A stretch of 64,000 nucleotides of DNA from positions 2,356,001 through 2,420,000 of the forward strand of contig NZ_CP059059.1 in NCBI RefSeq assembly GCF_014217855.1, written 5' to 3'. Within the stretch, counting starts at the first letter, position 1. Each line of letters starts with the position of its first letter. Made by a program: the position numbers and the translations under genes. Shown one piece after another: positions 41,312-43,607 of the stretch. The notes below the pieces were generated by a model. It was not told where the DNA came from. It did not search any database and saw only the letters and a program-made list of their open reading frames with translations. The stretch comes from Synechococcus sp. HK01-R (GTDB lineage: Bacteria; Cyanobacteriota; Cyanobacteriia; PCC-6307; Cyanobiaceae).

Positions 41312-41385
41312 GGCGGGCGTCGCCAAGTGGTTAAGGCAGCGGCTTGTGGCGCCGCTATTCGGGGGTTCGAATCCCCTCGCTCGCC
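41312..41385 (+). tRNA. tRNA-His (anticodon GTG)
   Basis: Acceptor GCGGGCG pairs with CGCTCGC, with the extra G at 41312 opposite the discriminator C, as in bacterial histidine tRNAs. The anticodon stem GCGGC/GCCGC encloses TTGTGGC, so the anticodon is GTG. T-arm GGGGG TTCGAAT CCCCT. The CCA is not encoded. The 5' end touches the longest form of the DUF4359 frame on the other strand. Confidence 0.96.
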
Positions 41386-41430
41386 CTTTTCAACCAGACG
41401 AGAGCTTCAGCACTCCTCGTCCCCCTTGGC

Positions 41431-42507
41431 TCAGGGCGTCAATAAGGCATCGAGCAACAGGTCGGCGCCATGGCAGCCAGCAACGATGCGGAGGGGATCC
41501 GCACAGGGCAGATTCAGTTCAGCGGCGATCGCGTCCACGGCTTGTTGCGCCTCCGCCGGCTCCAGGCGCGCGGTGTTCAGCGCCAGCGCCCGCACCTTGG
41601 CAGGCGGCCCCGCCTGAACAGGACGAGCGATCGCAGCGAGACCTTCGCAGAGCTGCACCAGCTCCGCCAGCGGGGGCAAGGGCACCTCAGGAAGACGCTC
41701 GATCGTGCCCTGTCCGGCCCGATGCACCATCAGCAACGCCGTGGGCTGACTCCCCCGCAGCAGGGGCAGCGTGGCCGTGGATCCTGGATGGCAAAGGGAG
41801 CCCTGCCCCTCCACCAACACCATCCCTTCCACCGGCAGGGCTTCCGCCCCCTGCAGGACAGCGGCCTCCACCGCCCCAGCGGCGTAATCCACTCGCACGG
41901 CATCCAGCGGCACACCGGCCCCACTGATCAGGATCCCCGCCTGACCTGTCCCGATGAAGGCGCTCGGCAGGCCACGACGTTCGGCCGCGGCCTGCAGGGC
42001 CAGACAAGCGCTCATCTTGCCAACCGCCATGTCGGTGCCCACCGCCAGCACACGTTGCTGGGGAAGGGCTGCTGCCCTGGCCTGGGCCACCACAAGACCA
42101 GGGGGTTCGCAGCGCAGATCCCAGATCCAGCAATCGGGCCGGCAGGCCGCTTTGAGCTCGGGATCGTCTGCCAAGCGGGTATGCAGGCCACTGGCCAGGC
42201 TGAGGCCAGCCCGTAGGGCCGCCAGAGCATCGGCCCGCACCGGCTCCGGCAAGCGCCCCCCCGAGGGAGCCAGACCCACCACCGCCACCGCGGGACCCAA
42301 GGGGAGAGCCGACTGGAGATCTGCCACCACCGGTACGGCGCGCGGAATCCCTGTGACTGCCTCGAGGTCTGCCCCTGCATGAGCCGGGTCAATCACAGCC
42401 ACGATCGGGCCGCGACGGTGCCGAAGCATCGCCAGGCCGGTCTTTCCGGTGAGTGAATCCAGCCCGCCATGCTGGAGAAGCACCACGGGATGGTCAGCGC
42501 GAAGCAT
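41431..42507 (-). CDS. dgcN: N-acetyltransferase DgcN-like (DUF1611)
   Basis: A ~358-residue DUF1611 protein. It has the N-terminal small domain (VVLLQHGGLDSLTGKTGLAM, IPRAVPVVADL), then a P-loop-like site in AVGTDMAVGKMSA (157-167), FIGTGQAGILISG and LVEGQGSLCHPGS. In Pseudoalteromonas and others, DgcN acetylates D-glutamate with its partner DgcA. The start at 42507 overlaps the dgcA stop by one base (TGATG), so they are translationally coupled. Other members of this family are annotated only as hypothetical or as NAD-dependent epimerases. Confidence 0.8.
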   Translation of the reverse strand: MLRADHPVVLLQHGGLDSLTGKTGLAMLRHRRGPIVAVIDPAHAGADLEAVTGIPRAVPVVADLQSALPLGPAVAVVGLAPSGGRLPEPVRADALAALRAGLSLASGLHTRLADDPELKAACRPDCWIWDLRCEPPGLVVAQARAAALPQQRVLAVGTDMAVGKMSACLALQAAAERRGLPSAFIGTGQAGILISGAGVPLDAVRVDYAAGAVEAAVLQGAEALPVEGMVLVEGQGSLCHPGSTATLPLLRGSQPTALLMVHRAGQGTIERLPEVPLPPLAELVQLCEGLAAIARPVQAGPPAKVRALALNTARLEPAEAQQAVDAIAAELNLPCADPLRIVAGCHGADLLLDALLTP

Positions 42508-43607
42508 CAGAGCCTCACCTCCTGCCAATCAATCCCGAGGCCGAGGGTCCTGGGCACTCCCAGGCGGTCCGCACTGATGGGTAAGCCCGTGAAGGGATCG
42601 TCGACAAGGTTGAGATGACTGTCTAAATCCGGCCAACGAATCAAGGGCAACAGCTGGGCGGCGGCTCCATTGAGCAAGGTGCTGTCGGAATAGCAACCCA
42701 CCATCAGCGCCAGATTGAGGCGATGGGCGACCAGGGCCATGAGCAGAGCCTCACTCAAGCCTCCGGTTTTGAGCAACTTGAGGTTGACCCCATCGACATG
42801 GGGGGCAAGCCGAAGCAGATCGTTCAGATCCCAGCAACTTTCATCCGCCACGAGAGGAAGCGGACAATCGGGCTTCAACCTTGCAAAGGCAAGGCGGTCC
42901 GCCTCTGGATCGACCTGAGCCGGAAGGGGTTGCTCCAGCAGCACCACCCCATGGGCTTGAAGGTGGCTGAGCATCCGCCGGGCCTGGTCCAGCGTCCAGC
43001 CTCCATTGGCATCCACCTGCAGCTCCAAGGGCTCTTGCCGGCGTTGTCCCTCCCGCTCGATCGCCTCTGCCACGGCCTCCAGCAGGGCCCGATCATGGTC
43101 GAGACCATCCGGGCTGCCGAGCTTCAATTTGATCCGCGAAGCCGGCAGCAGCTGCCACCAACGCTGAAGTCGCTCAAGCACCCGGTCCACCGAGGCCAAG
43201 CCGAGGGTGACACTGGTGGCGACAGACCACGTCTCGACGGGCCTCTCGACCGGCAGGGCCAGCAGTCGCCAGAGGGGCTGGCCAAGTCGCTTGCCCCACC
43301 AGTCCCAAAGGGCGAGGTCGATGGCGCACCGAGCCGGGGGGGAAAGGGGAGCGATCCGATCCGCGATTGCCCCGCGATCGGCAGGATCCAGGGAGTCCAA
43401 CAGAGGCAGCACCGACTCCAACTCGGCCTGAAGGGCATCGATGGCGTAGTGGCGATGGCCGGTGTCGAAACCACCGGTTTCCCCCAGACCGATGCAGCCC
43501 TCCGCCTCCAGCTGCAGCAACAGATGCTCCACTGACGCGGTCGTGCCCCGACTGATCGCCAGGGGCACAGCCTTGGAGAGGGGGAATCGCCGCAGGGCCC
43601 AGCCCAT
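42507..43607 (-). CDS. dgcA: enolase-superfamily racemase, N-acetyl-D-glutamate racemase/dipeptide epimerase type
   Basis: A 366-residue muconate-lactonizing-type enolase superfamily member. Catalytic KxK is K160 and K162 in IKLKLGS; metal ligands are D199, E225 and D255; the general base lysine is K277 in NLKLLK. DLDSHLNLVDD holds the DxD motif seen in L-Ala-D/L-Glu epimerases. DgcA racemises N-acetyl-D-glutamate; L-Ala-D-Glu epimerases are a close alternative. The ATG at 43607 was chosen; upstream codons would overlap miaB on the other strand. Confidence 0.83.
   Translation of the reverse strand: MGWALRRFPLSKAVPLAISRGTTASVEHLLLQLEAEGCIGLGETGGFDTGHRHYAIDALQAELESVLPLLDSLDPADRGAIADRIAPLSPPARCAIDLALWDWWGKRLGQPLWRLLALPVERPVETWSVATSVTLGLASVDRVLERLQRWWQLLPASRIKLKLGSPDGLDHDRALLEAVAEAIEREGQRRQEPLELQVDANGGWTLDQARRMLSHLQAHGVVLLEQPLPAQVDPEADRLAFARLKPDCPLPLVADESCWDLNDLLRLAPHVDGVNLKLLKTGGLSEALLMALVAHRLNLALMVGCYSDSTLLNGAAAQLLPLIRWPDLDSHLNLVDDPFTGLPISADRLGVPRTLGLGIDWQEVRL

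Follow-up and report, generated by a model that had tools for sequence, protein, structure and literature searches.

A coupled epimerase–DUF1611 gene pair in Synechococcus sp. HK01-R as a candidate DgcN–DgcA-like module for D-glutamate salvage

The gene pair and its products

The genome of Synechococcus sp. HK01-R (one contig of 2,479,154 bases) was analyzed over a 64,000-nucleotide stretch, hereafter the window, which encodes on its minus strand an enolase-superfamily epimerase followed directly by a protein of the Pfam family DUF1611. The start codon of the second gene begins inside the stop codon of the first, leaving one base common to both genes (Table 1). An initial annotation had noted this overlap, together with intact catalytic motifs in the epimerase, a P-loop-like site in the DUF1611 protein, and the presence of argD, murA, and ddl elsewhere in the window, and each of these features was located as claimed. 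The annotation had also named the pair dgcN-dgcA, after genes said to acetylate D-glutamate (D-Glu) and racemize the product. The name can be used only loosely: both proteins are homologous to the named pair, but both fall below the curated cut-offs for it.

Table 1. Coordinates of the epimerase–DUF1611 pair, its sequence motifs, and the adjoining tRNA gene within the window
Feature	Position	Strand	Basis and remarks
dgcA-like enolase-superfamily (MR/MLE) epimerase/racemase, 366 amino acids	42507..43607	-	First gene of the pair; ATG at 43607, TGA at 42509-42507; Pfam, NCBIfam scores, residues, AlphaFold model
dgcN-like DUF1611 protein, 358 amino acids	41431..42507	-	Second gene of the pair; ATG at 42507-42505; Pfam, NCBIfam scores, AlphaFold model
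TGATG stop/start overlap of the epimerase and DUF1611 genes	42505..42509	-	Sequence
P-loop GTDMAVGKMS, DUF1611 residues 157-166	42010..42039	-	Met instead of the usual Ser/Thr after Lys164; alignments
Arg20 of the epimerase 20s loop (ISRGT)	43548..43550	-	Alignment
KxK (K160, K162), epimerase catalytic base motif	43122..43130	-	Alignment
Epimerase metal ligands (span)	42843..43013	-	D199 (43011-43013), E225 (42933-42935), D255 (42843-42845); alignment
K280, second acid/base lysine of the epimerase	42768..42770	-	Alignment
DLD (D327, D329), epimerase DxD motif	42621..42629	-	Alignment
tRNA-His (GTG), just past the gene pair	41313..41386	+	Found close to miaB whether or not the pair is there; boundary marker, not part of the system

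The epimerase carries the Pfam domains MR_MLE_N and MR_MLE_C (97.8 bits), and alignment places all of its catalytic residues as kept (K160, K162, D199, E225, D255, K280, D327, and D329). Its AlphaFold model (predicted local distance difference test score, pLDDT, 93.4) comes closest to the dipeptide epimerase 3q45 (Z 44.7); the N-succinyl Arg/Lys racemase 2p88 scores nearly as high (Z 43.7), and 3rit, 3jva, and 3iji are also close. By sequence, the nearest solved relatives are 3jva, 3iji (which has L-Ala-D-Glu in its title), and the L-Ala-D/L-Glu epimerase (AEE) of Escherichia coli. As modeled, the fold is compatible with both dipeptide and N-acylamino acid substrates. The dipeptide epimerases among these relatives favor muropeptide recycling, the main rival to D-Glu salvage, in which the enzyme would act as an L-Ala-D/L-Glu dipeptide epimerase, the DUF1611 protein would modify the dipeptide or its product, and D-Glu would never be free; the nearly equal fold match to 2p88, an N-acylamino acid racemase, counts against it. 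In dipeptide epimerases the DxD aspartate binds the ammonium of L-Ala, and its retention in the window epimerase would fit the same role. DxD was nevertheless rejected as the mark of a dipeptide epimerase: the three named DgcA proteins and the E. coli dipeptide epimerase all carry it, so the motif is a cue for neither substrate.

Two other sites bear on the choice of substrate. Arg20, which we take to be the side-chain-binding residue of the 20s loop, is kept in 17/17 epimerases of the window's family (Cyanobiaceae) and in 60 of the 63 other cyanobacterial ones with letters at that site. Arginine is also found there in E. coli AEE (IARGS), the three named DgcAs, and the main haloarchaeal type, and leucine replaces it in a second haloarchaeal type and in Enterococcus faecalis 3jva. 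The beta-7 motif is altered in cyanobacterial and planctomycete epimerases and in one from Myxococcota (GCYSDS, GCYSQT, and GCFSES among the variants shown), most others having GCM. These variants, along with a group from Bacteroidota, Verrucomicrobia, and Paracoccaceae, have DLDS rather than DLDG. Such changes could mean that the same two-step logic serves another main acidic D-amino acid (D-Asp, D-Gln, or D-Asn) or another acyl donor; given the conservation of Arg20, we consider this improbable.

The DUF1611 protein has the Pfam domains DUF1611_N and DUF1611 (215.6 bits). Its AlphaFold model (pLDDT 95.8) matches three solved structures of the family: 2obn from Anabaena (Ava_3511; Z 48.4, 50% identity, with a sequence match of 315 bits), 2g0t from Thermotoga (TM0796; Z 38.5, 31% identity), and 7xrj, a crystal structure titled 'N-acetyltransferase DgcN-25328' (Z 37.0, root-mean-square deviation 3.2 over 329 residues). 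The C-terminal part (residues ~146-358) further matches BioD, CobB, ParA/Soj, MinD, and HypB at Z of about 12-14. The abstract of the DgcN paper reportedly describes DgcN as a new group within the GNAT superfamily. Beyond the DUF1611 structures, the listed fold matches are P-loop nucleotide-binding proteins, with no GNAT protein among the matches listed, which excludes nothing.

In place of the GK[S/T] of a Walker A motif, the window protein has GKM. Methionine, arginine, or lysine follows the P-loop lysine in 89 of 90 DUF1611 sequences obtained from searches that did not use that pattern, and in 169 of 170 when a pattern-biased scan is included. The Ser/Thr after the Walker A lysine normally holds the magnesium of the nucleotide. 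Its absence suggests that the P-loop of DUF1611 has been put to another use, perhaps gripping the phosphates of coenzyme A (CoA) rather than a hydrolyzable nucleotide.

Co-occurrence, loss, and genomic context

We surveyed 101 genomes of the Cyanobiaceae for both genes, as the initial annotation had proposed for picocyanobacteria. DUF1611 was found in 41 genomes and the epimerase in 39, with DUF1611 present in 39/39 of the epimerase-encoding genomes. Positions were then compared for 40 epimerase places and 53 DUF1611 places. The 40 are what remained of 42 epimerase rows once two short fragments of split genes (in G087 and G047) had been set aside, and they count genome G054 twice because it has the pair close to each end of its contig. 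The two genes are adjacent on the same strand at 39 of the 40 epimerase places; at the fortieth (G069), close to where a contig ends, DUF1611 is on another contig. The survey thus bears out the proposed coupling, and the pairing is far beyond chance. Muropeptide recycling leaves unexplained both this 39/39 co-occurrence and the activity of the named DgcN.

The association extends across the phylum, where DUF1611 matches turned up in 91 of 292 genomes; 89 of these pass the family cut-off, and several matches are partial or weak. Among 60 wider-cyanobacterial regions that we chose from these places, the DUF1611 gene was found in 58. The epimerase lies tightly upstream at 41 of these loci, upstream with a gap at 5, and downstream at 5, the last all in one family (f38), which the DUF1611 tree places with a named Melainabacterium. 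The other 7 loci have either an ornithine-racemase-like (Orr-like) gene downstream (4) or neither neighbor (3). The three genomes with neither neighbor encode the epimerase elsewhere (>400 bits), and in three genomes with only an Orr-linked DUF1611 copy the epimerase search returned nothing above 43 bits.

A wide scan of named genomes, from which the best 80 of at least 587 confirmed stretches were kept, placed the epimerase next to DUF1611 at 62 of the 80 loci. The taxa include haloarchaea, Bacteroidota, Planctomycetota, Chloroflexota, Verrucomicrobiota, Paracoccaceae, and Melainabacteria. By our labels, 34 of the loci are cyanobacterial and 46 are not. Adjacent pairs occur at 24 of the former, with the epimerase first in 22 and DUF1611 first in 2 (one of these, L225, Melainabacterial), and at 38 of the latter, where the epimerase comes first in 17 and DUF1611 in 21. 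Pairwise distances of the two proteins correlate (r = 0.949 for 126 loci and 0.824 for 20 thinned loci, with 0 of 2,000 permutations as high), which can be taken as weak evidence only, as shared descent alone correlates genes.

Nearby argD and murA/ddl had initially been read as a hint to the function of the pair. Across the family, argD, ddl, folC, miaB, and the flavin adenine dinucleotide (FAD) oxidase belong to clusters found in 12/12 loci compared, and murA to a cluster found in 8 of the 12, possibly because some retrieved stretches stop short of it. Eight family genomes lacking the pair were picked and opened at miaB, which served as the search query; their flanks were scored for the genes counted next, a set without argD, murA, and ddl. 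All eight of these genomes have miaB and tRNA-His as well as an amidohydrolase and the FAD oxidase; folC is present in 7/8 and DUF4359 in 5/8. Because the sampled flanking block stays where the pair is absent, we rejected the closeness of argD, murA, and ddl as functional evidence and regard it as old conserved synteny. A pathway shared with the downstream DUF4359, amidohydrolase, and FAD oxidase genes was rejected from the same counts. In the window, the segment 38169-40829 (-) encodes a cytosine-deaminase-like amidohydrolase and a GlcD-like FAD oxidase, both below NCBIfam cut-offs.

Remnants of the pair were found in two genomes. In G034 (L294, positions 602-709), which is of the same genus as the window and one of the eight opened genomes, a 36-residue epimerase start is all that was found of the pair, and the flanks are kept. 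In G349 (L302, G349:C1:699000-706000, positions 1775-2314), epimerase residues 1-131 are fused to DUF1611 residues 281-340, the arrangement expected from one deletion spanning the two genes, and DUF4359, the amidohydrolase, and the FAD oxidase are retained beside it. These remnants show loss in both genomes; for the other seven pair-less genomes, we infer it. Of 60 family genomes without a match, the 20 that were listed also lack the pair, and 19 of those 20 are 1.3-1.9 Mb in size. It is a dispensable two-gene unit within old synteny. Its location near murA, ddl, and ftsZ would suit a part in cell-wall synthesis, with the pair making or tuning D-Glu instead of removing it. With murI in the genome, and with the pair missing from 8/8 opened genomes that keep the sampled flanks as well as from the 20 just mentioned, we give this explanation very little credence.

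DUF1611 beside a second, unrelated racemase

Leaving aside the contig-split case of G069, 13 of the 53 family DUF1611 places lie apart from an epimerase. All nine that were opened (L061-L069) have a gene of the alanine/ornithine racemase family (Orr-like) right after DUF1611. Pfam Ala_racemase_N is matched by the two partners scanned, one of which (L063) reaches 287.6 of 480 bits on NF040742. The same arrangement recurs at four more cyanobacterial loci (L152, L153, L158, and L159) and on plasmids of Vibrio europaeus and Phaeobacter porticola (L175 and L176), and the Orr-linked DUF1611 proteins form one clade in the DUF1611 tree (support 100, starred). Like the window pair, this module sets a DUF1611 paralogue beside an amino acid racemase gene; its partner is a pyridoxal phosphate (PLP) enzyme of unrelated fold, and the records examined give the module no functional assignment. 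Since epimerase-linked and Orr-like-linked loci both exist, DUF1611 is genetically associated with two racemase types whose folds are unrelated.

Racemases that use PLP require the amino group of their substrate to be free, and in the Orr-like module racemization would therefore precede acylation. From the two modules together we advance, tentatively and knowing that it may well not hold, a broader proposal: DUF1611 proteins may be amino acid N-acyltransferases built on a CoA-gripping P-loop without the metal-binding Ser/Thr, tied to stereochemistry-setting racemases of at least two unrelated folds (enolase-type for glutamate and PLP Orr-like for another amino acid). In cyanobacteria with both modules, these would constitute separate routes that return D-amino acids to metabolism or make acylated D-amino acids. 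Pairing with a second, unrelated racemase would imply a general role for a Pfam domain of 'unknown function.'

Proposed D-glutamate route and comparison with known systems

By analogy with the named proteins, we lean toward the pair being a DgcN–DgcA-like module for D-Glu salvage. The DUF1611 protein would transfer the acetyl group of acetyl-CoA to the amino group of D-Glu, an activity extrapolated from a distant named relative. The epimerase would then invert the alpha carbon of N-acetyl-D-Glu on a metal-bound carboxylate, with K162 and K280 as acid/bases; acid/base inversion of this kind is enolase-superfamily chemistry. The resulting N-acetyl-L-Glu might in turn enter the acetylated arginine pathway, as the host genome encodes ArgJ (461.8 bits, over the cut-off) and has no ArgE over the cut-off (best 29.2 of 297.7). 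No ArgA passes its cut-off either (best 133.5 of 202.85, a match that we take to be a related kinase), although the ArgE and ArgA models are narrow, with 2 (ArgE) and 1 (ArgA) of 14 control genomes over the cut-off, so these absences say little. A different deacetylase might also act on the product. The idea that D-Glu feeds arginine synthesis, part of the initial annotation, is therefore kept as a weak suggestion drawn from the arginine enzymes, to which the closeness of argD contributes nothing. In Shewanella psychrophila WP2, DgcN–DgcA is described as very likely the main D-Glu route, judging from transcript levels (PMC10845958, in the part available).

Beyond the narrowness of the arginine models, several observations weigh against D-Glu salvage. 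Both window proteins score below the curated equivalog cut-offs, at 210.8 of 480 bits on NF041892 (DgcN) and 155.7 of 400 bits on NF042940 (DgcA). The corresponding proteins of Pseudoalteromonas sp. CF6-2 pass (493.4 and 412 bits), and a second picocyanobacterial pair also falls below (225.4 and 165.2 bits). In the DUF1611 tree, a long branch (length 1.26; 100, starred) sets the named DgcNs and two sphingomonad proteins apart, and the window protein groups with those of cyanobacteria, Planctomycetota, Bacteroidota, and others (99, starred). In the epimerase tree, the cyanobacterial enzymes fall within another clade (99, starred), apart from the named DgcAs, with which E. coli YcjG (AEE) groups (93, not starred). 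Both trees were quick reconstructions with support from the Shimodaira–Hasegawa-like approximate likelihood ratio test (SH-aLRT) only; 170 DUF1611 sequences were thinned to 96, and 136 epimerases plus 2 PDB rows to 71, with truncated sequences (L164, L209, L232, and L136) omitted. In the wide scan, no adjacent epimerase was seen at 14 of the best 80 loci (9 of them cyanobacterial), and 4 more end at a contig edge; a Streptomyces plasmid carries DUF1611 without a racemase gene nearby. None of the three DUF1611 structures names a bound ligand in its title. MurI, present in the host genome (197.5 bits), can already interconvert D- and L-Glu. The epimerase also retains its DxD aspartate although N-acetyl-Glu has no ammonium of the kind bound there, as do the named DgcAs. 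The proposed conversion of D-Glu to N-acetyl-L-Glu thus gains from homology to DgcN–DgcA, strict coupling, and conservation in many cyanobacteria, and is held back by scores below the cut-offs and by placement outside the named clades.

The grouping of AEE with the named DgcAs, in a species whose genome has no DUF1611 match, speaks for muropeptide recycling. Given this grouping and the DxD common to both enzymes, the racemase sequence alone cannot separate an N-acetyl-Glu racemase from a dipeptide epimerase, and the presence of DUF1611 is the better clue. The window epimerase itself is below the dipeptide-epimerase cut-offs as well (100.1 of 343 bits on NF011708 and 71.6 of 500 bits on NF041118). 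Alongside MurI, the host genome has one NlpC/P60 match and two S66 (LdcA-type) peptidase matches, which makes a dipeptide route also possible. On a plasmid of the archaeon Halorussus halophilus (L177:3920-7116), an NlpC/P60 peptidase gene directly precedes DUF1611 and a dipeptide epimerase whose 20s loop has Leu, not Arg. NlpC/P60 is, however, not among the 25 most frequent of the 95 Pfam families found in 114 neighbors of non-cyanobacterial DUF1611 genes. Those neighbors (114 of 187 listed, within two genes and of 150-620 amino acids, by a crude longest-open-reading-frame choice) show no clear theme, with top counts of 4/114. We rank muropeptide recycling after D-Glu salvage and regard it as rather doubtful.

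A further arrangement was seen on two sphingomonad plasmids (L179:5867-6988 and L180:5813-6928), where the gene after DUF1611 encodes a protein of 371-373 amino acids for which neither Pfam nor NCBIfam gives a match at 0.001. The cluster also holds a dipeptide epimerase, a peptide transporter, and a TonB receptor.

D-amino acids, largely from bacterial cell walls, are counted as slowly degraded marine organic matter, and dgcN has so far been reported mainly in heterotrophs. If the D-Glu salvage reading is true, phototrophs can recycle or take up D-Glu, perhaps towards arginine. The curated cut-offs would miss cyanobacterial pairs, as they do for both picocyanobacterial pairs scored. In the one library searched, we saw no report of DUF1611 or DgcN in cyanobacteria, and DUF1611 was named only in a Dickeya context; the available parts of PMC8305020 and PMC3605383 contain nothing on DUF1611. 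According to the accessible portion of a Mariana Trench study, dgcN occurs in 32 class-level clades; one survey had found it mostly in Alphaproteobacteria, to which that study adds Bacteroidetes, Marinisomatia, and Woeseiales (PMC12363236). The word 'cyanobacter' does not occur in its main text. In Synechococcus elongatus PCC 7942, the gene synpcc7942_2373 ('L-Ala-D/L-Glu epimerase') differs between two laboratory wild types, one having W98* and the other G27R (PMC13273366, Table 2, in the part available). If this gene is the DUF1611 partner, it would be one easily lost in laboratory culture.

Known systems resemble the window pair to different degrees. For the DUF1611 protein alone, Anabaena 2obn is the same kind of protein, its entry title assigning no function, and Thermotoga 2g0t is more distant, its title saying only 'putative nucleotide binding.' The L-Ala-D/L-Glu epimerases (E. 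coli YcjG, Bacillus subtilis, and Bacteroides 3iji/3ijq) have the fold, KxK, metal ligands, K280, and DxD in common with the window epimerase, and E. coli AEE shares Arg20 as well; the cyanobacterial clade is separate. E. coli, which is one of the 14 control genomes and has AEE, gave no DUF1611 match, and the 5 kb shown around ycjG has no annotated DUF1611 gene.

The closest parallel is the DgcN–DgcA D-glutamate pathway (Yu et al. 2023, ISME J), represented by the annotated dgcR-dgcN-dgcA locus of Pseudoalteromonas sp. CF6-2 (NZ_CP091443). Its DgcN and DgcA belong to the same two families as the window proteins, are encoded by adjacent genes, and are homologous to them over most of their length; the epimerase catalytic residues and Arg20 are the same, and the window DUF1611 protein has the fold of the DgcN structure 7xrj. 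Identity to named relatives is 29-38% for the DUF1611 protein and 26-32% for the epimerase (29% and 26% to the CF6-2 proteins). The two loci differ in gene order, the epimerase coming first in the window and dgcN first in the named records, and CF6-2 has dgcR, whereas the window pair has no dgcR-like gene beside it. They differ also in two epimerase motifs, where cyanobacterial enzymes have GCYSDS (among the variants shown) and DLDS and the named DgcAs have GCM..S and DLDG. The window pair is homologous to the named DgcN–DgcA pair, belongs to separate clades, and is missed by the curated cut-offs.

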